Positions 7,329-39,176 of a DNA stretch of 64,000 nt are shown piece after piece (position 1 is the stretch's first letter; every line of letters starts with the position of its first letter). The stretch spans positions 454,001 through 518,000 of the forward strand of contig JACTAT010000215.1 of the NCBI GenBank assembly GCA_014526335.1, written 5' to 3'. Below the pieces are notes generated by a model. It was not told where the DNA came from. It saw only the letters and a program-made list of their open reading frames with translations, and ran no database searches. Source of the stretch: Chrysaora quinquecirrha (taxonomy: Eukaryota; Cnidaria; Scyphozoa; Semaeostomeae; Pelagiidae). The position numbers and the translations under genes were made by a program.

Positions 7329-7470
7329 AGTGCATGGACAAATACTATCTAGTCAAACGAATTGTACAAATTCAAATATAAATTAGTAGTATTAAAATTA
7401 GATGTAGTAAATCATATAAAACAATGCAAATAAAAGGTGATAAAAAGTAAATATGTTGACGAAGTACGAA

Positions 7471-9515
7471 TCAGTCAAAAGTTTTGATTGAATTCAGTTC
7501 ATCCACTCGATATTCCAACGAGATATCAAAGCTTGGACCGACTATTGACAACCATTTGAATCGAAAATTCTTTTGATGCCTGCATCTGTTGATTTCTTCA
7601 ATAAGATACTCTTTTTGTTCACAATTTAACTGACGGAATATACAGTTTTTAATGTATGGGGCACAACCAATCACAGCATCGAATGTTTCCTTGTCAGTAT
7701 CTTCAGATTTATTCCAATATGAAAAAATCTCCAATTTCGATTCCTCTTTCATAATTCCATTCTTAAGAGATTCTATATGATCAATGGTAATTTCCTCTAT
7801 GAAAGTCAGGTTAACCTGACCAAATAAATGCAACCAAGATAGCAGATCAAGTGTTTGCTTAGATCGGGAAAAAGTCGATCCAGGTAAAGAAATTCTCATA
7901 TCAGCAAGCAAATCGCTCAAATTACAATGTTGCACCAAGTGGATAAAATGTAACAGGTGAAAAATATTTAGCTGTGTTAACAGTTCGATTATGAAGAATT
8001 CGTAGTATTTACAAACAAATTTTTCACCAAATTTCTTGCCAATTCGCTCATCCACTTCAAATGCTTCGTGAATAAGCTGTAACTGATAAATAAGATCTGT
8101 CCCTCGTCGAGTATTGTCCCGAAATTCTAAAATAAGAGATCTCTTGTCCGGTGTATTTTCAACTTTGACACATGACGAAAGAAACAAACTAACGATATCA
8201 AAATTCTGATTTCGTTGTGCAGCAGAGGAAAATCCAACCACAAATAAAAAAACCTGATTCCATCTTTTCTGGATTATCTTTTTCATACTGACATTAGTAT
8301 GAAAGCAGTGAATTGCAGCAAAAAACTCATGAAGTGTAAGATGTTTAAATTCATAGTGGTACCCATATTCCGTTTCTTTTTTGTTTATGAAAATTTCAAG
8401 TACTTCCTTTTCATCCGAGTTCCTGTTAAATTTTTCATCGATTTCACTGAATTGGTCTTTATCATAGACAATTTTATTTTCTAGAAGTAAATTGTAGGCC
8501 ACTTCTGCGATCAGTTTGATACATGTTGACAACCTTTCATCATTCAAAATTTCGTATGCTCTTTTTTCTGCATAATTTTGGAAATGCTGTCTTAGAAAAG
8601 AAATGAAAACCCATACGTAGAGATGGGTCACCCTGGTTATCTCTACGCCTCTTCCTTCAACTGCTAATACACAGCAAATGCTGTGTAGGTACTGTGGAAT
8701 GGTGCTTAAACCGTCCAGACTTGGGTTGTTTTCAAGAGCATCCAAAATTTCTCTCTTAACGTCTTCGTCTCCACTTGTAAAATTTCCAGCAAACTTTTTA
8801 ATTTCGCTTTCAGAGAAGCCAACAATGGACAATGTCCATAGTTTTCCTGTTATACTTTGATTTTTCATTAGTTCTTCCTCTTTGTGTGGCCTCCCAGTTA
8901 TGATTGTCGAATGACCAAGAAGGGGGTCAAAATCTTTATCAAGCAGATTTCTTAATATGGTTAAATCATTTAACTGCTTTCCTAAGTCATCTATTTCGTC
9001 AATACCATCGACAATTATAAGGATTTTGTTGCCTTGACCACGCAAGTCCTCAATCTTTAAGCCAAAATTATCATGCCAAAATTCATTGATTGTCTTTCCT
9101 TTGTATAAACGCAAGTCCCTACATCTTACCAGAAACACAAAGTGAAATATATCACTGTACAGATTATTATTAGCCCATGCAAAGTTGATCCATTCAGCAA
9201 GCGTGGTCTTTCCTATCCCAGCAACACCACGAATAAAATACCTTTGACCATTATCACACATCAAATCCTTTAGTTCGATTCTATTCCCTGCTGCTAAGCC
9301 AACCAACTTCCTATAGTTAAACAGCTCATTTGCCATACTTTGCTCTTCATACATAGAATTTACAACAACAAGCTCCACATTGTATTCTTTGCGATTTCGT
9401 AGCTCATAATCAAAAGATCTTACAATTTTACCCGATTCCATCTTTGATTTAAGAACGGGAACATGCCATTGCTGTAATTTTTTAATACACCTTGTCTTGT
9501 AATCCTGTACCACGT
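7471..9515 (-). CDS. Gene 1, 3' exon: NACHT NTPase of a HEPN-NACHT NLR
   Basis: This exon encodes about 681 residues ending at a TGA (7473-7471) and supplies the nucleotide-driven oligomerisation switch of an NLR-type immune sensor, expected in the cytosol. Numbering from the first full codon, there is a Walker A motif GVAGIGKTT (about 96-104), Walker B ILIIVDGIDE (164-173), sensor TGRP (206-209), the NACHT-typical TIPQYLHSIC (271-280) and winged-helix signature FKHLTLHEFFAA (389-400). The last 280 residues show no clear LRR motif. The exon opens after a pyrimidine-rich acceptor with a codon split after its first base, in phase with the linker exon at 10710-10772. A near-identical partner is the exon at 22141-24182. 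The NACHT identity is firm; ligand and signalling output are unknown. Confidence 0.93.
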
Positions 9516-10709
9516 CTAAAAAAAATTCAGCTTTACGTAACCAAGGTGAAGCAAAAGGATCGGGGGGAGGGGTCTCTGCCCTATGGGTGGCCGGTGATGT
9601 GCTGCCGAGATTTTACAGACCCACCTACTTACTGTATAATGTAGACACAGACCCTAAGCGGAAAATGAGAGTAAAAAGACTTGATTGGCCTTAAAATTGT
9701 ATGACTTGAAATTATGACATTATGACATGAAATTGTATGATGTTTTAGGTAAAAATCATACCCATCTTTCGAGAATCTCAAGCAATCGTGGTTCAGCTAC
9801 CTAAGTGCTTGTACTACTGATTTTATGAGCGTTCAAAGTTTACCATTTTATAAGGGCTTTGACAAGTTGAGGTGAAAAGTTTCACCCCGAGTCATTTTTC
9901 GCGGTCGAAGCCCTTATAGAATCCGGGACTTTGAAGCATCATAAAATCAATAGCACAATCGCCAGGACAGTGAAACTTCGCACCTATACTAAGCTTTAGA
10001 TGCTTTATAAGATTTTGTCATCGAAAACTTGTAATCTTGACGTTTTGACAAATGTTAATGTTGGCGGCCTTTCGTCGAAAAAGTCTATAGCCAATAGAAT
10101 AATCAGTACTAGGAGTAGGTGATCAGATGCATTTACCAAATTTTTGATCAGAAATATTTAAACTAAAACGACACGGTTGACTGAGCCTTCATCACATAAT
10201 ATGCGGTTATTGAACGATTGCGAGGTCAATGCTGGAAAATATTCGGACCGAAGCATAACGTACCGACCTCACTACGTTCGGTCCGTACAAGAAGCTGAGG
10301 TCCGAATATTTTCCTGCATTGACCTCGCAATCGTTCAATAAGGCTTTATTATATGGTGTTGAAAACTTTATACAATATTTTCGAACTTTTTTGGAGAATG
10401 TTTACTCAAAAAACATATTTTGTCAGTATTTAATTTTCCTATCTCAATCTCTCTCACTTCATCAATGAGAAATTACGTGGCTATATCACGTGATTATATC
10501 AACACCGGTCAATGCAGCTTATACGGACCCGTGAAGAATCAATCAGATTGCGCCGTTGCCGGTCCAAACAGCCGTATTTTCGAACACCATATAATAATGA
10601 CCGTGTATGTCACACGAAGAAGTGTCCGGTATGCAATAGAATTGGCTTGAAAGGTATGTGCTTCAATATAGTTGCATTCAATACGCAAACATGATTGGTT
10701 CAAACATAC
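9516..10709. other. Gene 1 intron with two repeat elements
   Basis: No exon is seen. At about 9820-10020 there is a dispersed repeat with inverted ends (TGATTTTATGAGCGTTCAA and its near-complement) that recurs at about 56765-56935. At about 10205-10350 there is a hairpin whose arms contain AACGATTGCGAGGTCAATG, followed by partly palindromic sequence to about 10600. Confidence 0.65.
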
Positions 10710-14023: not shown

Positions 14024-14153
14024 CCAGAACTGGGCCAATTTTTTAGTTTATTTTAAAAAAGTATGTGAACACTTTTTAAAGAAATTTGCTGCAACTACTA
14101 TGGGACGACTATACCTGATCTTTCACAGGAAAACATAAATGTGAAGCACAAAC

Positions 14154-14757
14154 CTCGAAACTGAAGAAGCCATATGTTGAATTCATCATTAAATCTTTTC
14201 TGAGTTTCTAGAACATCTTTCAGGTGCTCACTCAATTCATTCTGCACGGTTGATTGTTCAATTCTTTCAACTTCTTGTGTGTAGTTTGACCCAAACAAGG
14301 TACAAACATTCTTCAGTTTTGCAATAACTGTCTGGAAGTCCACAGATGAAACTGATGCACTCTTAGGATGTGCAAAGAATTCATTTCGAATCTCCCTCAG
14401 GTGGTCAACATACTCACTGTCCAACAAAGGGGAAATTCTTTTTGCCTTAACACGACAAGGTGTAATAAGCTGTAAATCAGAAAACAATAGAACAAAGAAC
14501 AGAGTTGTTGGATCCCAGTCACTTGCGTCTCCATTTCCTAGGTTGATCAAGTATTGCCTATTGCGTGGATTATTCTGGACCTTTGATGGAATTTGACTCA
14601 AAAGAAACTGGCCACTTTGACATGTGCCATCCCATTTATTTTGTGGATACTTTGCATTCCATTTCTTCTCAAAATACTGCCTCAAGTATGCAGACACAAC
14701 ATCTAGGATTAGTCTACAAAGTTTTACAAAGTTTTCTTGTTCTTTACTGAGACTCAT
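14154..14757 (-). CDS. Gene 1, 5' coding exon: DZIP3-like HEPN domain
   Basis: 201 full codons from the ATG at 14757 to a phase-1 donor (CGAG|GTTTGT). The all-helical domain carries the HEPN signature R-x5-H as RNEFFAH (residues 124-130), preceded by WDPTTLFFVLLFSDLQ (81-96) as in animal DZIP3-type HEPN domains. Some HEPN proteins are ribonucleases; in NLR-type proteins the domain is usually an effector or interaction module, so activity here is open. I chose Met 14757 because a pyrimidine-rich acceptor (CTTCTCCAG) lies at about 14773 and the frame continues from this Met. A six-codon upstream ORF, starting two bases after that acceptor, ends with a TGA overlapping this ATG. Confidence 0.85.
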
Positions 14758-14849
14758 TTCAATCTTTCCATCTCTGGAGAAGCAAAACAAAAGTATTATG
14801 CTAGTTAAAACTGTTCAATCATCAAGATTGTGAACATTAGGCTTCCACA

Positions 14850-16037: not shown

Positions 16038-16429
16038 AGCCCGGTTTGCTCATCAGTCTTTTAACAACTTTCAGCCGTGTTTGATGCACAGAATCGTGAG
16101 AATAAGTTAAGTCACATCTTAGCACTAGACCTTTCCAGAATATGGTTGATATTTATCAAATTTCATTCACTAATTTGGGCTTTGGAACTTTGAAGTCAAA
16201 TCCTCAAAATAAGAATTAATACATGTCAACTAAACTTTAAAATAAAATGAAATAAACATTTATTTAACTTCAAAATGATTTCCCAATTTGATTCTGTTGT
16301 ATAAGTAGTATTGCATCATAAAATGGTGGCTAGCAAGCAAGCAGAAAATCTTCATTTGTAAACACAGGTCAGTGCTGCCAGCTCTACCATATTTCCTAGA
16401 TAGATTAAGCACCTGGATGCTTATTTAAA

Positions 16430-17346
16430 CATAGGGGCCCTATGGGCATGTTCGAAGAACCACTCTGGTTGAATATAGCTATTTTGGTCAAATGATGAAC
16501 GATATTTATCAGTATGCACAACGATGACGATAATGATTATTATGATAATGGTGGTGGTTATGATGATGATGTTGATGACCACAATGACCATGATGCTGTT
16601 GGTAGGGGGTGATTGTGGTGGTAGGGTGGGTGTGGTGGTGGTGGTGGTAGAGGTGGTTGTGGTGCTGAAGGTAGGGGTGGTTGTGGTGGTTGTGATAGGA
16701 GTGATTGTGGTGATGGTTGTAGGGGTTGTTGTGGTGGTGGTGATGGGGGGGGCGGTTGTGGTGATAAGGGTGGTCATGGTGATGGTTGTAGGGGTGGTTG
16801 TGGTGGTGGTGATAGGGGTGGTCGTGGTGATGGTTGTAGGGGTGTTTGTGGTGGTGGTGCCGTTCCTAATAGATCTTGCCACAGCCACATTGTCAAAGAT
16901 GGTAATCATGATAATGATGATTATGATTATGATGATGATGTTGGTGATGAGAATGAGAATGATGACGATTTGCTTTGAAAACTGTTTTGAAATTGCCGCT
17001 CTTGCCCAGACTCTATGATCGATGTTGAGAATGTTTGAAATGTCATCAACTAAAACCAATGTGGCAATTTGCCATCGTTTATAAAGTAAACAACAAAGAC
17101 TCATAGTGAACTATTACGAATCAGTAGAACAATGGTCACATAACCTAAGATTGACAAAGCCGTTTTCAGGCCACCGTTGAGAAAAGTCAACCGCTAATTG
17201 GGCATCAATGGCCAAGACAATGGCTCTAAGAGCATTCTTGAGATGCTTATACTATTGTTACACGTTTTCCATTGTTCAAGCGTTGGTTAGTTAGTTAGTT
17301 AGTTAGTTAGTGACACGCCACCCACACCAATATGTTCGAATTTTCG
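16430..17346. mobile_element. Extra 0.9-kb segment in copy 2, with GGT-rich minisatellite and terminal hairpin
   Basis: Absent from copy 1, where the flanks join at about 530. The interior is a (GGTGGT)-type minisatellite (16550-16860) and a (TTAG)n run (17284-17310). The right end is a palindrome, ATGTTCGAATTTTCGAACAT, directly abutting the shared flank; ATGTTCGAA also occurs near the left end. A similar end (palindrome around GAATTC after a microsatellite) is at 59050-59072. Insertion is more likely than deletion in copy 1, but I cannot exclude the latter. The long ORFs here are repeat artefacts. Confidence 0.65.
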
Positions 17347-18170
17347 AACATAAAAATCTACCCCAAAGAGGTGAAATTACTTGAAAATTTATGAATAAAC
17401 TAACGTTTTGATGAAAACTAAATTTTGCAGCAATTGGCAAAAGTCTGTGGAGTGTGGCATGGGCACCAATGAGACAGGCAATAGAACAATAGAAAAGAAC
17501 AATGGAAATGTGCTTCTGCATGCATGAGATCTCGTCAAGAATTGCCATACTTCCCGGCTGGGCAAAAGGTGTCTATAAGTTCTTCCCATTGATTGCTAGC
17601 ACATCCTCTATCAAACATGCGTCTCGGCACCAACCTGACAGACAACTATGTAAATTTAAACGAGGCACTTAGTCGAGACTCGAGGGAGGGTGCTTATTTA
17701 AGGAAATAGGGCATGGCTGATGTTGCCCTGCAGCTAATAAGAAATTGAAACAAAATAAGCAATATTGCAAGCAATGGATATACAAAATCCATTTCAAACA
17801 ATTGATACAAAATCCAAATTTTTTATATCATCCGGATGAAATTGCCCCTCGATTCTACAACGATTTCTGCATGTAAACTTTTGCAACTCTTTTTTACATG
17901 TCTCCTCCATTACTAAGCAAGGCCTTACGAGTTAAACAGGCAAAATGATAGTAAAGGGAGGGAAGGTGGAGCAAATATGGCCTAACAATCTAAATGGCCT
18001 AAATAGAACAGAACTTCAATTCCTCTCTAGGAGTGCTTTACAAATCAGAAAAGCGGATGAAAAACGACGATATCTTAAAATTTAAAAACAAGAACTTTCT
18101 AATCTACAATCATAATAGCAAATTGTTTTTGAATATTGATAAAATAATAATAAAAATCTTTGCAACTAAC

Positions 18171-18372
18171 CTCCGATTGCAATTTTACTCTGGGAAATTC
18201 GAAAGCGAAAGCCAAAAGGAAGGGTCTTAAAGTCAGATTCGTCACATGTCAACTAAGCGACCAATCACAAATGCTTTATGTGTAATTTGCATAATCACGT
18301 GATTTTCAAGAAATTTTCAAGAAGTTCATTGAAATCCGAAAATTGATTTGCTGTTTTGAGACAATGACGTCA
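18171..18372 (-). promoter_or_regulatory. NLR leader exon and promoter, copy 2 (gene 1)
   Basis: The donor GAG|GTTAGT ends the leader at 18171. The inverted CCAAT (about 18252), CACGTG (about 18297) and a perfect CRE TGACGTCA (18365-18372) match copy 1 in order and spacing. On the minus strand the next good acceptor is that of the HEPN exon at about 14773, so this is the likely promoter of gene 1. The leader carries an in-frame stop in copy 2 and is probably non-coding. Confidence 0.55.
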
Positions 18373-18649
18373 CAGCTTCATAAAAACTGCACCCAAAAGG
18401 GACCAAAAAAACAAATATAAAAAAAGCAAAAAACTTTCCATTTTCTTGCTGAGAATATCTCTCATGTTTCATCTCTCGATATCCAAATCTTTCCAAAACT
18501 TGTTTCTCAAATATTTGAAATTTCTTTATCAAGCAAAATGTTTCGCCCTTTGGCAAAGTTGCAAAAGATTACTCGTCAAATATTTTGGGAATGTGGGAAG
18601 CAAGAAATATTTTGGAAATGTTTAATAAATATTGCTAAGCAACTCCTGA

Positions 18650-19570
18650 TTATCCAGCAATGTTTTGTGACGTGGCAAAACGGTCAACAAAGCATTTTAG
18701 GTCTATCAAACATTCTTTGTCAAACATTTGAGATTTGCTTCAAAAAAGCAATAAACTAACCGAACACTGCACAACAATACATCTCATCTATGCAAATCAA
18801 ACGATGTTTTGCTTGACAAGACCTTTAATTGATTTGAAAGTTTTGTTGACAAGAAAATTTGTACAGTGGCAAGAAATGGTCAACAATGCTTGTTAGGTCA
18901 ACCAAACATTGTTAGTCAAACATTTGAGATTTGTTTCCTAAAAACAATAAGCTAGCCAAACACTGCATAACAATAAACCTCATCTACGCTTGTCAAAAAA
19001 TGTTTTGCTTGACAAGAAAACTTTTGTGCAGTGGCTAACAAACGGTCAACAACGCTTGTTAGGTCAATCAAAGATTGTTTGTCAAACATTTGAGATTTGC
19101 CTCAGACAAGCAATAAGCAAGCCAAACACTGCACAAGAAATATAACTCATCCATGCTTAGCAAACAAGGTTTTGCTTGACAAACGACGTTTTTTTGAATG
19201 TTTTGTTTGACAAGAAAACTTTTGTGCATTAGCCAACAAAACGTCACAATGCTTCTTAGGTCAATCGAACATTTTTGGTGAAACATTTGAGATTTGCTAG
19301 CTAGCCAAACACTGCACAACAATACACCTCATCTATGCTTGTCAAACAATGTTCTGCTTGACAAAAGACGTTTGTTTGAATGTTTTGTTCGACAAGAAAA
19401 CTTTTGTGCAGTGGCCAACAAACAGTCACAATGCTTGTTAGGTCAATCAAACATTGTTTGTCAAACATTTGAAATTTTCTTTCCTGAGACACAATGCTGA
19501 CAGTATTGATCTGTCGCAGACATTGCTTGTCAAATATTGCTTGTCAAACATTTTCTGGGTTTGACAATGA
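18650..19570. repeat. Satellite A, second array (about 5 units)
   Basis: Same unit and flanks as 1838-3440, but about five copies instead of nine, with units missing from the middle. Confidence 0.87.
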
Positions 19571-20369
19571 TGATGTTTTTTGAAATTGCTATGTAAATTC
19601 TGATTGACGAACGAACAATATTTTGTGAAGTTGCCAAATAGTCATTCAAACATTGCTTGTAAAGCAAATCTCAAATGTTTGACCAACAATGTTTAATAGC
19701 TGAGTCAGGGCCTTACGCTTCTTGTCAGACGATAAAACATTAATGATGAAACATTTTCTAATAGAATATCGAAAAAGAACAAACACACATGTAATCAATT
19801 CGAGGCTAACAGACAAAATTAAGTACTGGAGAATACTATAAAATCAAAACAAGATTTAAAAAAGCCCTCGCTGTGCAGTAAATACACTTAAATGCTTATT
19901 GAAATCTTAGGTGGGGTAAAAAAACGCGCAAAAAGACTTAGCAAACATTGCTGGCCTGCTTTATTGAAAATAGGATCAAGTACGAAAAATTATACAAAAC
20001 GCTTGTATTGTTAATAGTGCATTAATATACCAATTATATACATAAAATATTTACTCATATAAAATTTCAAAATCGAATAAAAAAGTACAAAATAAAATTA
20101 CCGGTATTAAAATAAGATGTAGTTACTCTTGGTTTTGGCCAAATGCTTAAATTTCGTTTATAAAATATTGTTTGCAGAACATTTTAAATTAATTCATTAG
20201 GCAAAATGTTTTGCTGTTTTGGCATGGCGCAAAACATTAGCTATTTTCACTGGAGCGTGACAAGTTTGAAATGTTTTTGAAAGTTTTCAAAAATATTGTT
20301 AAGTGAACTCTGATTTTCAAACAATGTTTCGTGTCGTAGCAAAAACATCAAAAACAAAACATTGCTCAT

Positions 20370-21560
20370 TTAAGATTGTCATCCAAAGTAATCGAATTAA
20401 TCTGGGTCAACCTGGTATAAATAAACTTGGTTCAAAAGTGTTGTGGTGTGAAAACAGTGAATATGTAAAGTAATCTAAGACGAGATATGTGCACACCTAT
20501 ATAAGACTTTCAAAACAATTTTTCATCGATTCATCTCTTATTTAAGATTTTCAACCAACTAATCGAATCAATCTGGGTCAATCTGGTATAAATAAACTTG
20601 GTTCAAAAGTGTTATGGTGTGAAAACATTGAATATGTAAAGTTATCGAAGACGGGTTATGTGCACATCTATATCAGACTTTTAAAACAATTTTTTATCGA
20701 TTGCATATCTTATTTAAGATTGTCCTCCAAAGTAATCGAATTGATCTGAGTCAACCTGGTATAAATAAACTTGGTTTAAAAGTCTTGTGGCGTGAAAACA
20801 GTGAATATGTAAAGTAATCTAAGACGGGTTATGTGCACATCTATATCAGACTTTTAAAACAATTTTTCATCGATTGTATATCTTATTTAAGATTGTCCTC
20901 CAAAGTAATCGAATTGATCTGAGTCAACCTGGTATAAATAAACTTGGTTTAAAAGTCTTGTGGCGTGAAAACAGGGAATATGTAAAGTAATCTAAGACGG
21001 GTTATGTGCACACCTATATAAGACTTTTAAAACAATTTTTCATCGAGTGTATATTTTATTTAAGATTGTCATCCAAAGTAATCGAATTGATCTGAGTCAA
21101 CCTGGTATAAATAAACTTGGTTTAAAAGTCTTGTGGCGTGAAAACAGTGAATATGTAAAGTAATCTAAGACGGGTTATGTGCACACCTATATAAGACTTT
21201 TAAAACAATTTTTCATCGAGTGTATATCTTATTTAAGATTGTCATCCAAAGTAATCGAATCAATCTGGGTCAATCTGGTATAAAAGAACTTGGTTTAAAA
21301 GTCTTGTGGCGTGAAAACAGTGAATATGTAAAGTAATCTAAGACGGGTTATGTCCACACCTATATAAGACTTTTAAAACAATTTTTCATCGATTGTATAT
21401 CTTATTTAAAATTGTCATCCAAAGTAATCGAATTGATCTGGGTCAACCTGGTATAAAAAAACTTGGTTCAAAAGTGTTATAGTGTGAAAACAGTGAATAT
21501 GTAAAGTTATCGAAGACGGGTTATGTGCACACCTATATAAGGCTTCTAAAACAATTAAAA
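20370..21560. repeat. Satellite B, second array (about 7 units)
   Basis: The same 172-bp unit as 4860-6880 in about seven copies. The left edge enters directly at the phrase ATTTAAGATTGTCATCC. The SINE and part of the intergenic sequence present between satellites A and B in copy 1 are missing here. Confidence 0.9.
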
Positions 21561-21624
21561 CAATTTATCATTGATGATTTATCCTAATATATATAAGAAA
21601 TGCACATATTGCGAGTAACAATCA

Positions 21625-21994
21625 TTTTTTATAAGAAACTTTCTTCCACAAATCATAGTAGGATTTCTTAGGCTTAGGCACTCAAATCATGGTAAACATT
21701 TCTTGAATAGGTTTTGAAATTTCTAAGCAGACTTTTCTAAATTATACTGAAACGATTCAAGCATAGCCTAAGGTACTAGCTTTTAGTAACAAGATTTGAG
21801 AAAATAAGGGATACAGTAACAAGAAGTGTCAATAGATGTTTGAAACCCCGATGAAAAGGGATTTTAATTGTGAAGTTGCAAACCGAATAAAATTTCTTAG
21901 GTTTTTGTTGCCATTATTCTAATCCATTCAAAAACAGTTTCTTGATTTCCACGAAAACGGCTTATGCAGGTTTTTATAAGAGGTTTCTTATGAA
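21625..21994. mobile_element. MITE-like element, TTTTTATAAGAAAC termini (copy 2)
   Basis: Paralogue of 6953-7328, in the same position just 3' of the NACHT stop codon. Confidence 0.5.
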
Positions 21995-22140
21995 AAATGA
22001 GTGCATAGGCAAATACTATCTAGTCAAAAGAATTGTACAAATTCAAATATAAATTAGTAGTATTAAAATTAGATGTAGTAAATCATATAAAAAATGCAAA
22101 TAAAAGGTGATAAAAAGTAAATATGTTGACGAAGTACGAA

Positions 22141-24182
22141 TCAGTCAGAAGTTTCGATTGAATTCACTTCATCCACTCCATATTTCAAGATTTCATCAAA
22201 CTCTACATCAAGTATTGTCAACATTTCGAATCGGAAATTCTTTTGATTCCTGCATCTGTTGATTTCTTCAATAAGATGCTTTTTTTGTTCACGGTTTAAC
22301 TGATAGAATTGACAACATTTAATGTATGGGACACAATCAATCACAGCACCGAATGTTTCCTTGTCAGTAACTTCAGGTATATCCGCAAATGCTAAATCTT
22401 GCAATTTTGATTCTTCTTTCATAATTCCATTCTTTAGACATTCTATATGATCAGTTGTAATTCCTTCTATGAAACACAGTTCAACCTCTCCAAATAAATG
22501 CAAACAAGATAACAGATCAAATGTTTGCTTTGAACTAGAAAAAGTCGATCTATCTATAGAAATTATAATATCAGCAAGCAAATCGCCCAAATTACAAATT
22601 TGCACCAAGTGGATAAAATGTAACAGGTGAAAAATATTTAGCTTTGTTAACGAATAGAGTATGAAGTGTTTACCAACAAATTTTTTACCAAATTTCTTGC
22701 CAATTCGCTCATCCACTTCAAATGCTTCGTGAATAAGCTGTAACTCATAATAATGATCTGTCCCTGGTCGAGTAAAGTCCCGAAATTCTAAAATAAGAGA
22801 TCTCTTGTCCGCTGTATTTTCAATTTTGACACATGACGAAAGAAACAAATTAACGATATCAAAATTCTGATTTCGTTGTGCAGCAGAGGAAAATCCAACC
22901 ACAAATAAAAAAACCTGATTCCATCTTTTCTTAATTATCGTGTTTATAGCGACATTAGTATCAACACAGTAAATTCCAGCAAAAAACTCATGAAGTGTAA
23001 GATGTTTGAATTCATAGTGGTACCCATATTCCGTTTCTTTTTTGTTTATGAAAATTTCAAGTACTTCCTTCTCTCTTGAGTTACTATTGAATTTATAATC
23101 GATTTCACTGAATTGGTCTTTATCAAAGACAATTTTATTTTCTAGAAGGAGATTGTACGCCACTTCTGCGATCAGCTTGATACATGTTGACAACCTTTCA
23201 TCTTTCAAAATTTCGTATGCTCTTTTTTCTGCATAATTTTGGAAATGCTGTCTTAGAAAAGAAATGAAAACCCATACGTAGAGATGGGTCACCCTGGTTA
23301 TCTCTACGCCGCTTCCTTCAACTGCTAGTACACAGCAAATGCTGTGTAGGTACTGTGGAATGGTGCTTAAACCGTCCAGACTTGGGTTGTTTTCAAGAGC
23401 ATCCAAAATTTCTCTCTTAACGTCTTCGTTTCCACTTGTAAAATTCCCAACAAACTTTTCAATTTCGCTTTCAGAGAAGCCAACAATGGACAATGTCCGT
23501 AGTGTTCCTGTTATACTTTGATTATTCATCAGCTCTTCCTGTTTGTGTGGCATCCCAGTTATGATTGTCGAATGACCAAGAAGGGAGTCAAAATCTTTAT
23601 CAAGCAAACTTCTTAATATGGTAAAATCATTTAACTGCTTTCCTAAGTCATCTATTTCGTCAATACCATCGACAACTATAAGGATTTTGTTGCCTTTACC
23701 GCGCAAGTCCTCAATCTTTACGCCAAAATTATCATGCCAAAATTCATCGATTGTCTTTCCCTTGTATAAACGCAAGTCCCTACATCTTACCAGAAACACA
23801 AAGTGAAATATATCACTGTACAGATTATTATTAGCCCATGCAAAGTTGATCCATTCAGCAAGCGTGGTCTTTCCTATCCCAGCAACACCACGAATAAAAT
23901 ATCTTTGATCATCCCCACGCATCAAATCCTTTAGTTCGATTCTACTCCCTGCTGCTAAGCCAACCAAATTCCTATAGTTAAACAGCTCATTTGCCATACT
24001 TTGCTCTTCATACTCAGAATCTACAACAACAAGCTCCACGTTGTATTCCTTGCGATTTCGTAGCTCATAATCAAAAGATCTGATAATTTTACCCGATTCC
24101 ATTTTTGATTTCGATTTAAGAACGGGAACATGCCATTGCTGTAATTTTTTAATACATCTTGTCTTGTAATCTTTAATTGGAT
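22141..24182 (-). CDS. Gene 2, 3' exon: NACHT NTPase of a membrane-anchored NLR
   Basis: About 680 residues, stop TGA at 22143-22141. It is highly similar to the gene 1 NACHT exon throughout, with the same Walker A GVAGIGKTT, Walker B ILIVVDGIDE, TIPQYLHSIC and FKHLTLHEFFAG. One odd change is that the sensor arginine is replaced: TGMP instead of TGRP, a single AGG to ATG change (near 23552). The exon begins at a TTTTTTCTAG acceptor with two bases of a split codon. Joined to the G left by the exon at 25530-25592, this gives Asp and continues PIKDYKTRCIKK in frame. No LRR is evident. It is expected to act as the oligomerising ATPase attached to the N-terminal membrane domain. Confidence 0.93.
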
Positions 24183-24394
24183 CTAGAAAAAAGTGATTGA
24201 GTACAAAACACGTGATTGAGTACAAAAAAGTCAGCATACCCCCGTTACAGAGTTAACGAGATCTCATGATAAACGAAACGAAAACCGAAGAATTTATCAA
24301 CCGGAGAAAATGAGATGATAGCTGGAAAAGCTGTCGTTTACTTGATTCTTTGCCAGACACAGTAAGCGATAAAAAATGCAGAAAAGGACTATAG

Positions 24395-24770
24395 CACTAC
24401 ACGTTTTTTTTTTAATAAGAAAGCGGTTTATAAGAAAGTAGTGCTCAACATCTTAAAAACTTAATACTGGATTCTTGAAACTTAAGAAAGTTCTGTTTTA
24501 TACTTTCACTCCTAATGTTCTGTGTGTTATTTTTGCTCTTCAGTGGCTCATCTTGCTATTAAAAGAGTCTAATGATAATATTCTTTGAAAAACGTGGTAT
24601 TTATGCAATGTACACAGTACCTTTACACTGTGAATTGTTTGAAATACTGTATTTCAAAATTTGTGCTAAGAAAGTCACAAGAAAGTTTTGGTACTGACAA
24701 CATGAAATATCTAAGAAAGTTTCAATACTGGCCCAAAAAAAACTTTCTTATAAAAATGATGAATAGCTGT
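24395..24770. mobile_element. MITE-like element, TATAAGAAAG family
   Basis: Ends read CTACACGTTTTTTTTTAAT and, inverted, AACTTTCTTATAAAAAT. It is related by its termini to the other TATAAG-type elements here and lies in a gene 2 intron. Confidence 0.5.
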
Positions 24771-25059
24771 TTTAAAGAACATGGAACGAGTTGGGAACAA
24801 GCTTCAATTCTTGCACAAGATAGAAGTGGGTGGAACCATTTCATGAGATCGCGCGAACTGTGAAATTTCCATCTACTTTGTACCACGTTTATCGAATTTC
24901 TATTGTGTTACATTATGTATATAGTATACGGAAGATGTTTATGATGATGACGATGAGAAAAATGTCCAGCCTTTTGTCAACCAAGATATTCCAAGGATAA
25001 AATCCAATTTACAGTGAGTACTGAGAGTCTAATTGAATCTCACCTAGCCTGACCTGACC

Positions 25060-25476
25060 TGATACCAAGATAAAATAAGGGAACTAAGATAGCCTAACTT
25101 GTGCTTAGATCATTCCTAGGCAAAGTGACGTTATTAAACACGAAATTGCAATTTTCGTAACAAGACGCCTATAGGTTTATGTTGCGGTTTTGTCCCGGAA
25201 TAGAAACTGAAGCACTTTATTTCCTCACTTTGCTTAGGATAAACCTGTGCAAGATATCAAAATACCCGATATTAAAAAGCAATAATTTAAGTTTCTTTTG
25301 AACCCACCAGTGAAATATGTGCATCAAAAGAATCATCAATGTCTGGACGACGAAATTATACCGTTGTTTTGTTACAATATGCCCGCAAAACCCTCAAGAA
25401 GCATGAATCAAAATGGGCAAAAATGACAAGATTTAGTTAGACTATCTTGGTTCTCTTATTTTATCTTGTGATACTG
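25060..25476. mobile_element. MITE with ~35-bp inverted repeats (AAGATAAAATAAG)
   Basis: Both ends carry AAGATAAAATAAG followed by GAACYAAGATAG and CTAAC, in inverted orientation. A solitary similar end lies at about 46275-46310. It lies in the gene 2 intron, with no coding potential. Confidence 0.75.
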
Positions 25477-25529
25477 ACCTAAGAAAGTCTAAAAAATTTG
25501 AAATAAAAAATGGATACTGTTCTTTATAC

Positions 25530-25592
25530 CATGTTCACTGTTTAAATCGTCTAATCTTTGCTCTTGATTACTATTTTGATTTTGGGAATCAC
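25530..25592 (-). CDS. Gene 2 linker exon
   Basis: A 63-nt phase 1-1 exon after a pyrimidine-rich TTCCAAG acceptor, ending at G|GTATAA. It encodes DSQNQNSNQEQRLDDLNSEH, a polar spacer. The single T left by the membrane exon plus GT here makes Cys, and the last G plus AT of the NACHT exon makes Asp, so all three exons join in one frame. Confidence 0.75.
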
Positions 25593-26769
25593 CTTGGAAG
25601 ACAAAAAATGAAAAAGAAGTCAGAATGATAGAACGAACAACAAAGTTAAGACAAAGGGATTTTGTAGACTACTGGTGCTGAAAAATAACAGTAATAAAAA
25701 ATGGGACAGTCAGTCAGCTAGCCAACATATACCTAGGGCCCATGTACACGAGCACTTAAACATTCTTAAAACAGCAGGCAACATTCCTCAAAATTCTAAA
25801 TTCATCATTTTCCATCTCAATTTCATGATGGATATCTAATAGCAGAAACCAATTACAATGAATTCTCTTGACAGCAGGGTTAATTATTCTGGAACCAAAA
25901 CAGTTCAAGGGGAGAATCATATTTTGAAAAGCTATAGAAATAGACATCCAAACAAAGTGATAGTTTCAAAAATAGGTTTCCAAAGACCTTGGAAATCCTT
26001 GATTGATGCATTTTCAGATATTATAAGCGATATACATCCATGCTCTGTTTCTGTTTTGCAATAAAAAGGGGCCATAACATGATAAGTGCATTATTTGTCA
26101 CAGTTTCCCATGCTCTTAATGAATGTTTTATCTTATGAAGTTCATAAAAAAATCCATGTCTTGAAGAGTCAGATAAATTCTATCATATTGAAAACTTTCA
26201 ATTTCCTGACTTAAATCAAGTCCCTGCAAAGACAAGAGGTAAGGGACATTTTAATCCCTGACGACAAAAAACAAGAAGACAACAGACTTGTGAAAATTAA
26301 AGACCTTCAAGAGGTCTTCGGTTTTATTAGTTGGTCCTTTCTTCATCCGTTCATGATAGTGTTCTTGAGGAAATCAACTGTAATTGACTGTACATGGCGC
26401 ATAGAGGTGTTAACTCTGTTATTCACCAGAAGAATATGAGAACATTGACAGTGTACATGGACTCTTCATCAACTACTTTATTTTTATTATTTAAAGTTCA
26501 TAAAAAATTGGACATTTGAGGAAACAATGCCTGGAAAACATGGTGGCATGCTTCACAAGCAGACTGCCAACTGCTGGTGTGCATGCAGGTCGCAGCACCA
26601 AAGACAGGAAAATGTGGAGGAGTATGATGAAAAAGTCTGCTAAGCTCCCCAGCAACCAACATGATGGCTTGACCCCGAGATGAGTTAGTGAAGGATTGAA
26701 TTAAAAATAAACTTTAGACGTAGTTACTGACCATTTCAATGAAAGTATTAACAAACATAGAGTACTTAC

Positions 26770-27586
26770 ATATGAACAAACAAAATTTTGAGATCCAACT
26801 CAATTTTCTTCTTAAAATGTCACAGAAACATTTGTCTCTTCGTGGTCTCGGATAAATGAACCACAACTCTAACATATTTAGCAACAGGTAAAAAATTGTA
26901 AATCCAAAATGGGCAAAGTTCAATCTTGTAGCTTTGCTGTGATCAAGATATGTACAATAACTGATAGTATTTCTTTTTCCTCCACTCACATATCCTGGAC
27001 ATATGAATTTAGCATCGGTGCTCATATGAGGCCAACGGATAGCAAAATATAATAATACAAATAAGAAAAATGCCAAGCGTACAATAATCTGTGTTGGATA
27101 AACTTTGCACAGATGCTTGTAAAATGGTGTCCCGTTCTCACAGTTCCGGTTGGATGGTTCTGTTTCCGTCAAGAGTGTAAAACCAGTTTCATCAGATGAT
27201 TGATGTCCTTCATTTTGTTCATATTTTTTATGCCTTTTGCCTCTTGGTTGAGATTCTTTATTTTTGTCATCCAGTTGAGAATAAAATGAATATGCAATTA
27301 AGAACATTGAAGTGAAATGAATTGCAAATAGTACCCAATAAAAGGGTTTGGGAATAAAACCATCAGAATGCAGAAGATTCCTTTCTGTATTAAACTCATT
27401 TAAACAGGCCAGTTTTGTCCCAGGAACATTACATTCAAATCTAAGATGTGTAGCCTTTTCAATATCAGAATATAGATCAAGCACGTAAGAGTTTATTGAA
27501 AGAAAAAACAGGATCTCAATTACACCAAACACCGTTCGGTTTTTCACAAACAATTTCAGTATCCATTCAACCAATAATTCAAACAT
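26770..27586 (-). CDS. Gene 2, 5' coding exon: connexin-like four-helix membrane domain
   Basis: 272 codons from the Met at 27586 to a strong phase-1 donor (T|GTAAGT). Four hydrophobic segments are visible at about 19-38, 82-104, 165-184 and 225-245, with a charged intracellular loop (105-160). The first extracellular loop has RFECN and two cysteines (C52, C61); the second has C196 and C211. TM4 reads YLLLNMLELWF. A short N-terminal helix with Trp8, the FxCN loop start, and the LLLN-x-LEL pattern in TM4 all recall connexins, but connexins carry three cysteines per loop and this has two. I chose Met 27586 because an acceptor (TTTCTTTCAG) lies just upstream. Likely a plasma-membrane channel or sensor domain; homology is inferred by eye. 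Confidence 0.72.
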
Positions 27587-27829
27587 TTTTGCCGCTGAAA
27601 GAAAAATCAAATAAGTTTTATTATAATGTGTTATGTTATTGTGATTTCATTTTGATGAAAGCACTTATCTATCCTGGGATCTGGGAGCATGCATTGTAAC
27701 GGGACCTACTTTTAGGTTCAGAACAAACAGTGGGGGACTCATTAAGAAAGTTGACTGACCATTACAGTAGCGGACCCAAAGGCTTCTCTTTCATTTGCTG
27801 CCATACAAGTTAGGGGTGTGCTACTTTAG

Positions 27830-32729: not shown

Positions 32730-33345
32730 ACCCCCTACAATGTGTGTCCAGTACCGTGGGGATGTTCAGTACTGTGGCGGATATTCAGTACTATGGGGGC
32801 ATACCATGAGTCGTGTGGGGAGGCATCTCTGAGTACCGTGGGGGATATTCAGTACCGTGGGGGCATACCATGGCAGATATTCACTACCCTGGGGGCATAC
32901 CATGATTTGTGTGGGGGCATACCATGAGTCATGTGGGGAGGCATCATGAGTTGTGTGGGGGATATTCAGTACCGTGGGGGCATACCATGATTTGTGTGGG
33001 GGCATACCATGATTCGTGTGGGGAGGTATCTCTGAGCACTGTGGGGGATATTCAGTACCATGGGGGAACATCATGAGTCGTGTGCGGAGTGGGGGATATT
33101 CAGTACCGTGGGGGCATACCATGATCATGTGTGGGCATATCATGAGTCGTGTGGGGAGGCATCATAAGTCATGTGGGGGATATTCAGTACCATGGGGGCA
33201 TACCATGAGTCATGTGGGGAGGCATCTCCGAGTACCTTGGGGGATGTTCAGTACCGTTGGGGCATATCATGAGTACGGTGGGGCATATTCAGTACCGTGG
33301 GGGGACGTACCTTGGAGTACCGTGGGGGATGTTTGGTACCGTGGG
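32730..33345. repeat. Tandem array of GTACCGTGGGGG units
   Basis: Irregular units built from AGTACCGTGGGGG, GATATTCAGTACC, GGGCATACCATGAG and CGTGTGGGGAGG. The unit is homologous to that of the 39.2-42.8 kb foldback arms (AGTACAGTGGTGG plus GATGTTCAGTAC plus GATACCATGAG). No inverted partner is adjacent. Confidence 0.88.
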
Positions 33346-34600
33346 GTACATATATATTCTGGGCGACCTCGTATAGATCCTTTTGGATTTTGTCTTTGCT
33401 TGATTGAAGGTCGATCTTGAGGTCGATGGGTTCTTTGCAAAATGCTTTGGCAACTTGGATACCGTGCTAAGGGTTTGATGGGGGGTTAGTGCTGTAAAGG
33501 CAATAATTGGTGCAAGAATTTTTGGTACAGACATTATATTCTTGCTTACAGTAACAGGCAGTGCTTACTGTTTATAAATACGGAATGAACGTTTTGGATT
33601 TTGCTTCCAATAAACACGCTTTGATTTCCTTTCGTTCAATCAGAAAATGTTTGAAAAAAGAGCGAACATGTAGCAAAACATAGATAAACATTTAAAAGGC
33701 ATACCTTTTTAGTTAACAACAAGCGAATTCTCTACTTCTAGATATTCAGACCAACTTTACATCAGGCTTTCCACTTCGTCTGCAACCAGTACAGTAAGAC
33801 ATTCAAAAGTGAAACGGGAAGTACTTTCAGACAGTCTGTTGGCAAAACAAGAGTGACAAAGGTCATGCGTCACTTGACCAATCAAATTGCAAGCAAAACA
33901 ATTCATGTTCAGTTCGTCTCATTTCAATATGAAAGAGATTGCATTCCAGACAGCTGAGGTGATCTCAATTGTAGGTTGAATTTACTGAAGATTAAAAAAA
34001 CCCTTCTGCACTTCGTTCAGCTAAATTCTTGGCGAATAATTAATTGTGACACAACCGTATCTCTGCATGAAGGGATGCATATGGTTTTTAAAACTTTCCT
34101 TGAAACTGCCCAACTAGAAAAATTTTTGAAATGGTATGGTACGGGAAACAAAAAAAAATTGCCTAACAGGGGTTGTTCAAGGGGGTCGCACTCCTTATCA
34201 ACCCGCTTGACTGATATTGGCTTATACAACAAGCGAATTAAAGAATACAGAAGCGACTACTGGAAGTCATGTGAGGAGTTTATGTTAAACATAGCAATCG
34301 GTACAGTACATTGTAAATATGGTTCGAAAGGGATTTCACTATGTAATACTACGTTATATTTTACCAAGGTTTTACCTGTGGAAGTTAACAAACTCTCCCC
34401 TCTGTAAGAAATTCTGACTATACTAATTATGCTTAAAGTGACGAATACCTACTTGGTATGTTTCGAAACGAAATTTCCGTTTCTGGGAAGACATTGCATT
34501 AAAAAACTCTGAAGTCCCAGTTGGCCTAAAGAAGGGTTGTTTCAACAGTTAGGCGAAACACGGAAAAAGAGATAGCTTTAAAGTTCTTTTCAACAGCTTT
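33346..34600. other. No supported gene
   Basis: Contains a 143-codon open frame on the plus strand (33976-34407) with no recognisable domain, and a short minus-strand helical stretch at 33365-33465. Neither has enough support to call. Confidence 0.5.
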
Positions 34601-34663
34601 GATAATAATAGAAAATTGTTTCTGAATATTGGGAAAGAAATAATATAGATTTTTACGACTAAC

Positions 34664-34870
34664 CTCAATTTGTTTGCTTTCAACAACCTTCACGTTGGAA
34701 ATCGAAAGAGGAAGAGAAACAGAAGAGCGAAGCGAGGGAGGGTCAAATCAAAGGGTAAGGATTAAAGTGACAAAAGGTCACATGATAGAGTGACCAATCA
34801 GAATGCTATCTACCTGCCTTATTTGGATGCTCAAATTTTCTAAGGAATTTTCAAAGAAACTTCAGTACTG
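34664..34870 (-). promoter_or_regulatory. NLR leader exon and promoter, copy 3 (gene 2)
   Basis: A diverged third copy of the leader: donor GAG|GTTAGT ends at 34664, and the inverted CCAAT lies in GACCAATCAGAATGCT (about 34791-34806). The CRE seen in copies 1 and 2 is not present. On the minus strand the next good acceptor precedes the connexin-like exon at about 27598, so this is the likely gene 2 promoter. Confidence 0.5.
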
Positions 34871-35159
34871 TATCTGCAATACACGCCCAGGGGGTCTACA
34901 GTATGAAATTTCTTGGATTGAAAGGGCATTTTTTGGAGATATTGGAGAGGAGCATTTGACAGAGAGAAAGGGGGCCTTACTGTATTCGAGATATGAACTT
35001 AATCAAGGGAGGGGATTTGCAGTGTTCAAGCTTGAAGATCATAGAAATTCATAAGGCCTTCAAATGTTCCACAAGGGGACTTATTCAAGGGGGGGAGACT
35101 TATTTGCGAAAACGAATTCTTAGGTGGGGGCTTATTAGAGGGGGGCACTTATGTATATA

Positions 35160-36310
35160 GGTGGGAGGTATTGGTAGAAAGGGTAGGGTTATCGATAGGA
35201 TTGAATTTTATGGGTAAGGTTATCGACAGGATTAAATTTTGAAGAGTAGGGTTATCTCTAGGATTAAATTTTAAGGTTAGGGTTATCGATAGAATTGAAT
35301 TTTAAGGGTAGGGTTATCTCTAGGATTAAATATTAAGGTTAGGGTTATCGATAGAATTGAATTTTAAGGGTAGGGTTATCTCTAGGATTGAATTTTAAGG
35401 GTAGGGTTATCTCTGGGATTAAATTTTAAGGATAGGGTTATCGACAGGATTAAATTCTTAGGGTAGGGTTATCGATAAGATTGAATTTTATAGGGTAGGG
35501 TTATACATAGGATTAAATTTAAAGGGTAGGCTTATCGATAGGATTGAATTTTAAGGGTAGGGTTATCAATAGAATTTGATTGGTAGGGTTATCGACAGGA
35601 TTAAATTCTTAGGGTAGGGTTATCGATAAGATTGAATTTTATAGGGTAGGGTTATACATAGGATTAAATTTAAAGGGTAGGCTTATCGATAGGATTGAAT
35701 TTTAAGGGTAGGGTTATCCATAGAATTTGATTTTAAGGGTAGGGTTATCGACAGGATTAAATTCTTAGGGTAGGGTTATCGATAAGATTGAATTTTATAG
35801 GGTAGGGTTATACATAGGATTAAATTTAAAAGGGTAGGCTTATCGATAGGATTGAATTTTAAGGGTAGGGTTATCCATAGAGTTTGATTTTAAGGGTAGG
35901 GTTATCGATGGGATTGAATTTAAAGGGTAGGGTTATTGACAGGATTAAAATTCAAGGGTAGGGTTATCTTTAGGATTGAATGATAAGGGTAGGGCTGTCG
36001 ACAGGAATAAATCTCTAGGATTGAATTTTAAAGGTAGGGCTAAAATTCTTGCCCTGCGAGGTGTGGTGTGGTTAACTCTATGGTTGAATTTTATGGGTAG
36101 GGTCTATAGGATTAAATTTGAAGGGTAGGGTTATCTCTAGGATTAAATTTGAAGGGTAGGGTTATCGATAGGATTGAATGTTAAGAGCAGAGTTATCGAC
36201 AGGGTTGAATTTTATAGTCATATCCTAGAAATAACCTTACCCTTCAAAATTGAATCCTATAGATAACCCTACCCATAAAATTCAACAATAGAGATAACCA
36301 CACCACACCT
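35160..36310. repeat. Telomere-like minisatellite (~33-36-bp unit)
   Basis: About 30 units of the form GGGTAGGGTTATCGAYAGGATT followed in turn by AAATTYTWA; several carry exact TTAGGG. A higher-order ~180-bp unit recurs from about 35460 to 35880. The right end (36215-36310) is the inverted complement of part of the array. A lone unit sits at 32690-32735. Confidence 0.85.
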
Positions 36311-36769
36311 CACAGGGCAAGAGTTTTAGAACAAAGTTTTCGCTGAAAAAATAAAAACTTTATTGCTGTTTGCTTTCTTTTCATTTCTTTTTTCCTTCAA
36401 TTTTCAATCTTATTTTTTTTATTTCATTTTTTTCTTTTTTATTTACGTTTCAATTTCTTCTTCCTCTTTTACTTCCGCTTTTCTTTCTTTGAAACCACGT
36501 GACCCATCGGGACCACAGGGTGGCCGGGTGATGTAGAAATTTCTGAGGGAAAAATAAAGAATTTTCAACCCTATGCCCATGCAATTTTTCTGCCTGGCAG
36601 TTGAGGCCTGGTCAAACTGGTCAAAGTTGTTGGCAAATTTTATCAAAATTAGACGTTAACGCAGGAGTGAGCGTTTTGGTTCCCCTGTTTGGGCTATCCT
36701 CTGCCAGGGTCTCTGATCCAGTTCGAGGCTGTCGAGCAACTTTACTGTACACCACTGGCCAAAATTCCC

Positions 36770-37161
36770 GCTAGCGAATCTATAATCACTAATGTGGTGG
36801 ATAATCACTACTGTGGTGGTACTTTTTGCGTACTGTGGTGGTAGTTTCTGCGTAATGTGGCGGATAATCATTACTGTGGTGGTGAATACGAAATCATAGC
36901 AAAACCCTATAGATCAAGCAAGAAAAAACCACAACATCCACCACAGCGCGCAAAAATACCACTACATCAAGCATAATAACCCACCACAGTAGTGATTATC
37001 CACCACAGTACGCCAAAACTACCACCACATCAAGCAAAGTACCCCACCAAATCAAGCATAATAACCCACAACAGTAATGATTATCCACCACAGTACGCAG
37101 AAAGTACCACCACAGTAGTGATTATCCACCATGGTAGTGATTATAGATTCGCTAGCGTGAA
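36770..37161. mobile_element. Foldback element FB1
   Basis: Termini GCTAGCGAATCTATAATCAC and its exact inverted complement at 37141-37160. The arms are tandem CACTACTGTGGTGG and TGCGTACTGTGGTGG units and are mirror-related around a spacer at about 36883-36925 containing ATCAAGCAAGAAAAAAC. Confidence 0.85.
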
Positions 37162-37423
37162 ATCGTAAAAAAAAAACAAACAAATGAAAGAACCTTACGT
37201 TGGAGCGGGAGGCAGGGAGACTCTCTTCCTCAAGACCGGTCTCTTGTCGCTTTCTCTGTGAAAATATGAAAATTCTGTTGTGAAAATCCAAATTGAACAG
37301 CTTAATAATATACGGTTAGTAACTGGCCTTACGACTGACACTCTTGCAGTAAAGCTTGTTCGAATGACCTCAACTTTTCGCTTGACAACCCTCAACTTTT
37401 TGTCGAGATAATAGTCGTTTTCA

Positions 37424-38898
37424 TGCTAGCGAATCTATGCGCACTTCTGTGATGGATACGTACTACTGTGGTGTTACATTTTGCGTACTGTGGTGGTGTT
37501 TTTTGTGTATACTGTGGTGGATATACACTACTTTGGTGGGTTATTATGCTTGATGTAGTGGGTTATTATGCTTGATGTGGTGGGTTATTATGCTTGATGT
37601 GGTTGGTTATTATGCTTGATGTGGTGGGTTATTATGCTTGATGTGGTTGTATTTTTGCGTACTGTGATGGATACGCACTACTGTGGTGGTATATTTTGCG
37701 TACTGTGGTGGTGTTTTTGCGTACTGTGGTGGATATACACTACTTTGGTGGGTTATTATGCTTGATGTAGTGGGTTATTATGCTTGATGTGGTGGGTTAT
37801 TATGCTTGATGTGGTTGGTTATTATGCTTGATGTGGTGGGTTATTATGCTTGATGTGGTTGTATTTTTGCGTACTGTGATGGATACGCACTACTGTGGTG
37901 GTATATTTTGCGTACTGTGGTGGTGTTTTTGCGTACTGTGGTGGATATACACTACTTTGGTGGGTTATTATGCTTTATGTGGTGGGTTATTATGCTTGAT
38001 GTGGTATTTTTGCGTACTGTGATATGGATACGCACTACTGTGGTGGTATATTTTGCGTACTGTGGTGGTGTTTTTTGTGTACTGTGGTGGTTACGTACTT
38101 CTGTGGTGGGTTATTATGCTTGATGTGGTGGATTAAAATGCTTTATGAAGTGGGTTATTCTGCTTGATGTGGTGATGTTTTTGCCTACCGTGGTGGATAA
38201 GCACTACTGTGGTTGGTTATTGTATTATGCTTGATGTGGTGAGTTATTATGCTTGGTGTGGTGGATTTTGTTGTTTTTTCTTGCTTGATCAATAGATTTT
38301 AGCTATGATTTAATACCAATCACAGTACGCAAAAAATACCACCACACCAAGCATAATGACCCACCACAGTAGTACGTTTCCACCATTGTACACAAAAAAC
38401 ACCCCCACAACAACATATTAACCAACCACAGAAAGCATTATAACCCACCACAGTAGTGCTTATCCACCACAGTACGCAAGAAACAACACCACACCAAGCA
38501 TAATAACCCACCACAACAAGCATTATAACCCACTACAGCAGTGCTTATCCACCACAGTACGCAATAAACAGCACCACACCAAGCATAATAACCCACCACA
38601 ACAAGCATAATAACCCATCACAGTAGTGCTTATCCACCACAGTACGCAAGAAACAACACCACACCAAGCACAATAACCCACCACAACAAGCATAATAACC
38701 CATCACAGTAGTGCTTATCCACCACAGTACGCAAGAAACAACACCACACCAAGCACAATAACCCACCACAACAAGCATTATAACCCACCACAGAAGTGCT
38801 TATCCACCACAGTACACAAAAAACACCACCACAGTATGCAAAATATACCACCACAGTAATGCGTAGACACCACAGTAGTCCTATAGATTCACTAGCGT
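37424..38898. mobile_element. Foldback element FB2 (same family as FB1)
   Basis: Ends GCTAGCGAATCTAT (37425) and inverted GCTAGTGAATCTAT (to about 38897). The left arm (to about 38265) and right arm (from about 38320) are inverted arrays of TGCGTACTGTGGTGG and GGTTATTATGCTTGATGTGG units. The spacer is the inverted relative of the FB1 spacer. The arms are much longer than in FB1. All ORFs here are repeat translations. Confidence 0.88.
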
Positions 38899-38939
38899 TG
38901 TTCTTATACTGGGCGATGTCATGTCATTGTCGAGGAAAG

Positions 38940-39093
38940 CGAGGGGCAAATCACTTTCCTTAGAAGTGGACGAGATTTTTGGGATTTTCACAAAAGAACA
39001 ATAGAATTTCCTGAAAATTATTAAAGGATTTTCGAAAAAACAATAGGATTTTTCAAAAAGTGGACGAGATTTTTTGGAGTGATTTGCCCCTCG
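38940..39093. mobile_element. 154-bp MITE with 8-bp target duplication
   Basis: Termini CGAGGGGCAAATCACT and its complement, flanked by GAGGAAAG (38932-38939, 39094-39101). A diverged relative with CCGAGGGGC ends lies at about 43246-43372. Confidence 0.8.
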
Positions 39094-39176
39094 GAGGAAA
39101 GTTTTGACAACTTCAAATTCATTGCTTGACTTCCCCTGACATAACTATTGTCCGAAGTGTAGGGATTTTTGGAGGT

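Follow-up and report, generated by a model that had tools for sequence, protein, structure and literature searches.

A connexin-related membrane domain family recurrently paired with NACHT exons in the jellyfish Chrysaora quinquecirrha

Gene layout in the window

We analyzed a stretch of 64,000 nucleotides from the scyphozoan jellyfish Chrysaora quinquecirrha (assembly GCA_014526335.1, contig JACTAT010000215.1, positions 454,001 to 518,000; hereafter the window), whose minus strand carries an exon for a connexin-like four-helix domain followed by an exon for a NACHT ATPase. An earlier note, made from the letters of the window alone, had read the two as one spliced NLR gene. Its features are as follows (window positions).

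26770..27586, minus: exon 1, connexin-like four-helix domain; ATG at 27586; 817 nt, or 272 codons plus 1 base
27452..27532, minus: core of the first transmembrane helix (TM1), residues 19-45, our cut of the modelled helix 19-49 (AlphaFold2 model)
27404..27433, minus: first extracellular loop cysteines, C52 (27433-27431) and C61 (27406-27404)
26954..27001, minus: second extracellular loop cysteines, C196 (27001-26999) and C211 (26956-26954)
26855..26941, minus: TM4, residues 216-244, containing LNMLEL (AlphaFold2 model)
26769-26764, minus: exon 1 donor GTAAGT, phase 1
25530..25592, minus: putative linker exon, 63 nt, 21 residues, phase 1-1, open and AG/GT bounded
22141..24182, minus: exon 3, NACHT ATPase, NLR body and C-terminal LRR-like repeats; 2,042 nt; phase-1 acceptor
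23440..23901, minus: NACHT domain proper (Pfam PF05729, residues 94-247 of window:22141-24180)
22210..22668, minus: alternating strand/helix units of ~28 residues, LRR-like (model only)
22143-22141, minus: stop codon of exon 3

The 272-codon exon with its four helices, the two cysteine pairs, RFECN (residues 49-53, at the first cysteine of the first extracellular loop) and YLLLNMLELWF (in the fourth helix) were all found where the note had placed them, and the AlphaFold2 model of exon 1 adds an N-terminal helix (residues 2-15) ahead of TM1. Exon 1, the 63-nt segment and exon 3 do form a single open frame, with split codons that resolve to Cys and Asp. The linker through which the note joined them fared less well: its own donor, the second of the gene (GTATAA), looks weak by eye, exon 1 also joins exon 3 in frame without it, and it stands as a putative exon only. 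Just upstream, an acceptor-like tttctttcag at 27587-27605 (minus), 8 bases ahead of the ATG, may mark a leader intron or a trans-splice site.

Exon 3 carries the full NACHT that had been claimed for it (PF05729, E=1.6e-18, 67.5 bits against a cut-off of 26.7), including GVAGIGKTTL and ILIVVDGIDEID, which we take to be Walker A and Walker B. Its structural model (predicted local distance difference test score, pLDDT, 71.6; predicted template modelling score, pTM, 0.67) matches structures of NLRP3, NLRP9, NLRC4 and NOD2 (best E=3.8e-17), with the closed NLRP3 hexamer 8swk among the fold matches. No Pfam LRR match was obtained at E<=0.01 in the window's exon 3; a relative on contig C290 has LRR_1 and LRR_4 matches, both below cut-off.

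A four-helix family homologous to connexins

When the window exon and a distant relative, L005, were used to search the species' own genome (328 Mb, 740 contigs), 15 places proved to carry a long connexin-like open frame; two further queries recovered 11 and 12 of them. Left outside this set were C395:2609741 (E=0.67, a 71-residue frame, 3 stops), two C215 fragments with stops, and a 49-residue frame at C324:5378174 beside a decayed C324 copy. In an alignment of all 15 domain exons, which also served as a profile (A3), C52, C61, H158, C196, C211, N223 and E240 (window numbering) are invariant, and every member has exactly two cysteines per extracellular loop. Thirteen of the 15 bear N-glycosylation sequons in these loops, the exceptions being the window member and L052. 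A 13-member profile that omits the window exon and its 62% paralog finds the window exon at E=6.8e-19 and listed no reversed sequences; together with the connexin matches of A3 below, this rules out a chance four-helix resemblance. Between the window exon and the 62% paralog, non-synonymous and synonymous divergence (dN/dS) are 0.266/0.748 over 263 codons. A search of 5.8 billion protein sequences returned only P0001 (99% identical, 290 residues, unspliced); with A3, P0003 was found in addition, by eye resembling the C290 copies.

The relation to connexins emerges from the family rather than from any single member. Against 177,635 distinct PDB sequences, 34 of the 35 A3 matches at E<=10 are connexins, all of them below 0.01 (Cx32 2.5e-13, Cx26 1.4e-12, Cx43 3.1e-6, Cx50 8.2e-5, GJD4 0.0016); the remaining one is a ferrireductase (E=5.5), and LRRC8 was not listed at E<=10. 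The alignment spans the four-helix domain (profile 18-213 to Cx32 18-224) and is gapless from 18 to beyond both first-loop cysteines. By counting along it, the C52 and C61 columns fall on Cx32 C53 and C64 and the second-loop pair on the first and third connexin cysteines; the middle cysteine is therefore missing in each loop. In the Cx26 structure 2ZW3 the two middle loop cysteines are reportedly bonded to each other, so that one whole disulfide would be absent here and two would remain. The connexin-like topology with fewer cysteines that the note saw in the window exon holds throughout the family, at two per loop against the three of connexins, for which a passage of PMC11117596 gives the usual spacings C-x6-C-x3-C and C-x4-C-x5-C.

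Structure prediction, one of the checks the note had suggested, returned a connexin-type fold for the exon 1 subunit: all of the 50 structural matches listed are connexins, at 13-18% identity, and absence from those 50 does not exclude a family. Model and alignment together retain the connexin layout of N-terminal helix, second-loop strands and four loop cysteines. Another of its checks, a comparison with Pfam channel profiles, also placed Connexin first. Exon 1 alone matches PF00029 at E=2.8e-4 (21.2 bits, curated cut-off 31.3), and, scanned one by one, nine of the 15 members match Connexin at E<=1, the best at E=2.7e-4, the window exon's score. Innexin, LRRC8 and CALHM were accordingly rejected as nearest sequence family; CALHM and Innexin do not appear in the Pfam listing of the 15 members, which does not exclude a distant tie. 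Among the other single-member scans, L002 and L007 gave no match or an unrelated weak one, and L003 a weak match to TssN. Whole-genome searches with Pfam Connexin and Innexin found nothing at E<=0.001; as they also missed the window exon, and were likewise silent in 14 control genomes, they are uninformative on absence.

Some results weigh against a connexin assignment. None of the 15 members reaches the Pfam Connexin cut-off, and exon 1 alone has no phmmer match in PDB at E<=10, so that a single sequence is insufficient where the family profile suffices. The domain might instead be of LRRC8 or pannexin type: a smaller, 6-member profile (A2) put LRRC8A (E=0.012) ahead of connexins (0.077), Foldseek also lists LRRC8 8b41_E (6e-4) and Panx1 (9.7e-4), and LRRC8 proteins likewise join a four-pass large-pore domain to a cytosolic LRR part. 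With all 15 members, however, the order of the smaller profile is reversed, as described above, and neither Pfam's leading family nor the structural matches listed side with LRRC8; we regard an LRRC8- or pannexin-type domain as very improbable. By sequence and predicted fold, the family is a statistically clear homolog of connexins.

Recurrent pairing with NACHT exons

Pairing was counted against 45 NACHT matches in the genome. Ten of the 15 domain exons have a same-strand NACHT downstream within 25 kb (3 within 5 kb, 6 within 10 kb); an upstream NACHT was found for 1/15, and an opposite-strand NACHT within 25 kb for 0/15. The ten pairs, spread over seven contigs, share strand and order, with 2 to 22 kb between the two exons. 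When the 41 matches of a Pfam NACHT search were read by position, they contained the same ten pairs and, in addition, a NACHT that lies upstream of the domain exon on C156. A binomial estimate (3e-26) ignores clustering and duplicates and is a guide only.

Splice sites agree with this arrangement. With approximate scoring weights, 12 members have a donor above 3 behind the domain; the best-scoring one is phase 1 in 11 of these and phase 0 in the twelfth, and the other three of the 15 have no donor above 3. At the NACHT start, 14 of 16 frames gave an acceptor candidate, in every case including a phase-1 one (in one frame it lies further upstream, and one frame also has a phase-0 candidate); two of the 16 gave none. 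Six of the 16 frames come from the ten pairs, each with a phase-1 acceptor. In the C290 copy the domain exon (14882695-14883475) meets the NACHT exon (from 14885714; Pfam E=3e-18) in frame over one 2,238-nt intron. A Peptidase_C80 match in the C290 repeats (24.5 against a cut-off of 23.8 bits) was taken for a chance match.

In frame, phase-matched and recurrent, these pairs would put an N-terminal effector domain into the same protein as the NACHT, and they lend support to the note's proposal of an NLR with a channel-forming-type N-terminal module. We infer that domain and NACHT exons form one mRNA. The alternative is two adjacent genes, a stand-alone connexin-like gene and an NLR gene, separately transcribed and duplicated together. 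Exon 1 could end at an in-frame stop 18 codons beyond its donor, and an in-frame ATG precedes the acceptor in the window NACHT and in one of the five other paired frames, so that a separate start is possible in these two. Five of the 15 domain exons also lack a downstream NACHT match within 25 kb: the one on C156 has a same-strand NACHT ~5 kb upstream and, downstream, open reading frames (ORFs) with Death domains, C146:6730706 has a NACHT upstream, and C146:5124915, C313 and C170 have none near. The case for one gene is further weakened because several loci are near-duplicates (with near-identical copies merged by our own grouping, the ten pairs become 6 of 9 distinct groups), because C324:5377609 has 3 stops in its domain exon and 14 in its NACHT, with stops also in the NACHTs of C324:5340126 and C146:4966788, and because recent paralog pairs show dN/dS of ~0.3 to >1, on few changes. 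Two separate genes would nevertheless have to account for the constant strand and order over gaps of up to 22 kb, for donors and acceptors that are both phase 1, for the four of six paired NACHT frames without an in-frame ATG ahead of the acceptor, and for the window exon and its 62% paralog, which by eye keep the same donor and differ in the residues beyond it. On balance we consider two genes unlikely.

Among the unpaired copies, L048 (C313:3283448) is a connexin-like exon with no NACHT near, a repetitive KVKGQ tail and a best donor in phase 0. On C156 (L005 and L046, minus strand) the connexin-like exon at 260178-260963 is followed by two ORFs, 257607-258350 and 253129-253818, whose Death domains match at E=2.2e-5 and 2.8e-7; a NACHT at 265682-266170 precedes the connexin-like exon, and this locus possibly encodes a connexin-like/Death protein.

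Nuclear copies of mitochondrial COX1 occur on three contigs, L040 (C179), L041 (C424) and L042 (C192). In the longest, TGA occupies ten Trp positions and AGA nine that are read as Arg; by eye, eight of these nine align with Arg in the top-scoring PDB match to COX1, the conserved GMPRR among them. TGA for Trp together with AGA for Arg excludes the usual bilaterian mitochondrial codes. Because C424 bears such an insertion with the same code, contamination is unlikely for the domain-NACHT pair on that contig. By our reading the C179 copy comprises COX2, tRNA-Trp, COX1 and 16S-like sequence, with COX2 opposite in direction to COX1, the 16S-like sequence after COX1 and a tRNA with anticodon TCA on the COX2 strand. 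Such a COX order is given in part of PMC3519871 as ancestral for medusozoans (limnomedusan hydrozoans, staurozoans, discomedusan scyphozoans), and a passage of PMC4655093 places trnW between cox2 and atp8 in most hydroidolinan hydrozoans.

A second NACHT copy lies further along the window's minus strand.

7471..9612, minus: NACHT exon paralog produced by tandem duplication, its protein 84% identical; separate from this gene
14098..14814, minus: HEPN_DZIP3-like exon upstream of the tandem NACHT paralog (Pfam E=3.1e-5, 24.2 bits against a cut-off of 27)

The duplicated segments are 1-9504 and 16038-24171, and the match stops at 24171, 11 bases inside the NACHT exon and next to its acceptor (24182). 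A single kind of NACHT behind both a HEPN_DZIP3-like and a connexin-like exon is the exon swapping expected of an NLR family. Both NACHT copies are followed downstream by arrays of a ~173 bp repeat (4884-6886 and 20365-21556, ~91-93% alike). Repeated reverse-transcriptase-like frames, Penelope-like by our reading, lie at L062 (C208:437501-446500), upstream of a further NACHT copy. Elsewhere in the window, long arrays of minisatellite and low-complexity sequence (32766-47000) show strong changes in GC skew, and an ORF (59304-59867, minus) has acidic runs and a single C2H2 zinc-finger match that scores below cut-off.

Proposed function, origin and known systems

A domain family related to connexins in sequence and fold recurs in this genome ahead of NACHT exons on the same strand, with phase-compatible splice sites. 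For the window gene we favor, at a probability of roughly 0.6, a membrane-bound NLR with an N-terminal connexin-homologous four-pass pore-type domain, followed by a NACHT ATPase on the cytosolic side and, last, a short LRR-like part. Both termini would face the cytosol, which charge counts in the window member favor only weakly (K/R outnumber D/E by 8 to 2 behind TM4, yet also by 4 to 2 in the second loop). About six subunits, their loops held by two disulfides, which the connexin pairing would predict to be C52-C211 and C61-C196, would form a non-junctional hemichannel, which a cytosolic NACHT ring may hold shut in the manner of the LRR domains that hang beneath LRRC8 channels; ligand sensing and nucleotide exchange would rearrange the ring and open the pore, and ion flux or ATP release could then serve as an alarm or death signal. 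Channel and NLR stoichiometries need not clash, because connexin hemichannels have six subunits (stated in part of PMC8769644) and an NLRP3 hexamer is among the fold matches. Hexamer state, gating, ligand and cargo are nonetheless matters of inference and count against the proposal in this specific form.

Two alternatives concern the domain's role. It could be a membrane anchor or scaffold without a pore that merely tethers the NLR; identity to channels in the structural matches is low, at 13-18%. The retained connexin layout argues otherwise, and we find a poreless anchor distinctly unlikely. Alternatively, the hemichannels could dock between cells, with NACHT controlling the coupling. Connexin homology fits such a gap-junction NLR, as does the window member, whose sequon-free loops weigh against an undocked hemichannel. 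Pannexin loop sugars are described as hindering docking in a passage of PMC8769644, and an undocked hemichannel is what two cysteines per loop and sequons on most relatives would lead one to expect. Junctional docking has, in our judgment, very little chance of being correct.

In the parts consulted, PMC6391747 and PMC8769644 report connexins from vertebrates and tunicates and none beyond them save an unconfirmed sea urchin transcript, and hold that they arose de novo in chordates; PMC6391747 searched with PF00029, and its table, as we read it, scores Hydra without connexins. A passage of a 2021 survey of cnidarian NLR-like proteins (PMC8260672) names HEPN, TIR and Death as the commonest partners in single species, and "connexin" is absent from the main text of that survey. 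Judged by titles and abstract starts, no connexin-NACHT protein was among the papers listed from the open-access PMC literature. A connexin-homologous family in a medusozoan genome makes the origin of connexins testable. Tentatively, and against the odds as we see them, the connexin fold may predate the cnidarian-bilaterian split as a pore module of innate-immune NLRs (perhaps of Death-domain proteins too), one that had two disulfides in its loops and did not dock. The connexins of chordate gap junctions would then be derived from it, having shed the NACHT body and acquired a third disulfide. An expressed fusion would be an animal NLR with a channel-type domain of its own; sensing and ion flux would be linked by the shorter path of a single protein, and NACHT gating of a large pore could be measured directly.

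Among known systems, connexins (PF00029; Cx32, Cx26, Cx46) are the closest to the N-terminal domain, which differs from them in its paired rather than triple loop cysteines, in scoring under the Pfam cut-off, in the loop sequons of most relatives, and in occurring outside chordates with an NLR body behind it. LRRC8 volume-regulated anion channels resemble the family, as their presence among the Foldseek and 6-member profile matches indicates; the domain here is nearer to connexins by the A3 profile and structural matches, and we know of no LRRC8 with a NACHT ATPase. With NLRP3, NLRC4, NOD2 and cnidarian NLR-like genes the window gene shares a NACHT and a repeat-like C-terminus, and, as in the cnidarian genes, its tandem NACHT copy is preceded by a different N-terminal exon. 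Unlike the HEPN_DZIP3, Death or TIR modules of those genes, its predicted N-terminal module is an integral membrane channel-type domain. Plant CC-NLR resistosomes and fungal HeLo-type NLRs, in which the N-terminus of the NLR itself probably acts on membranes, offer a parallel to the proposed mode of action; in these a soluble helix bundle inserts upon activation, whereas the gene described here would encode a four-pass membrane protein of another fold.

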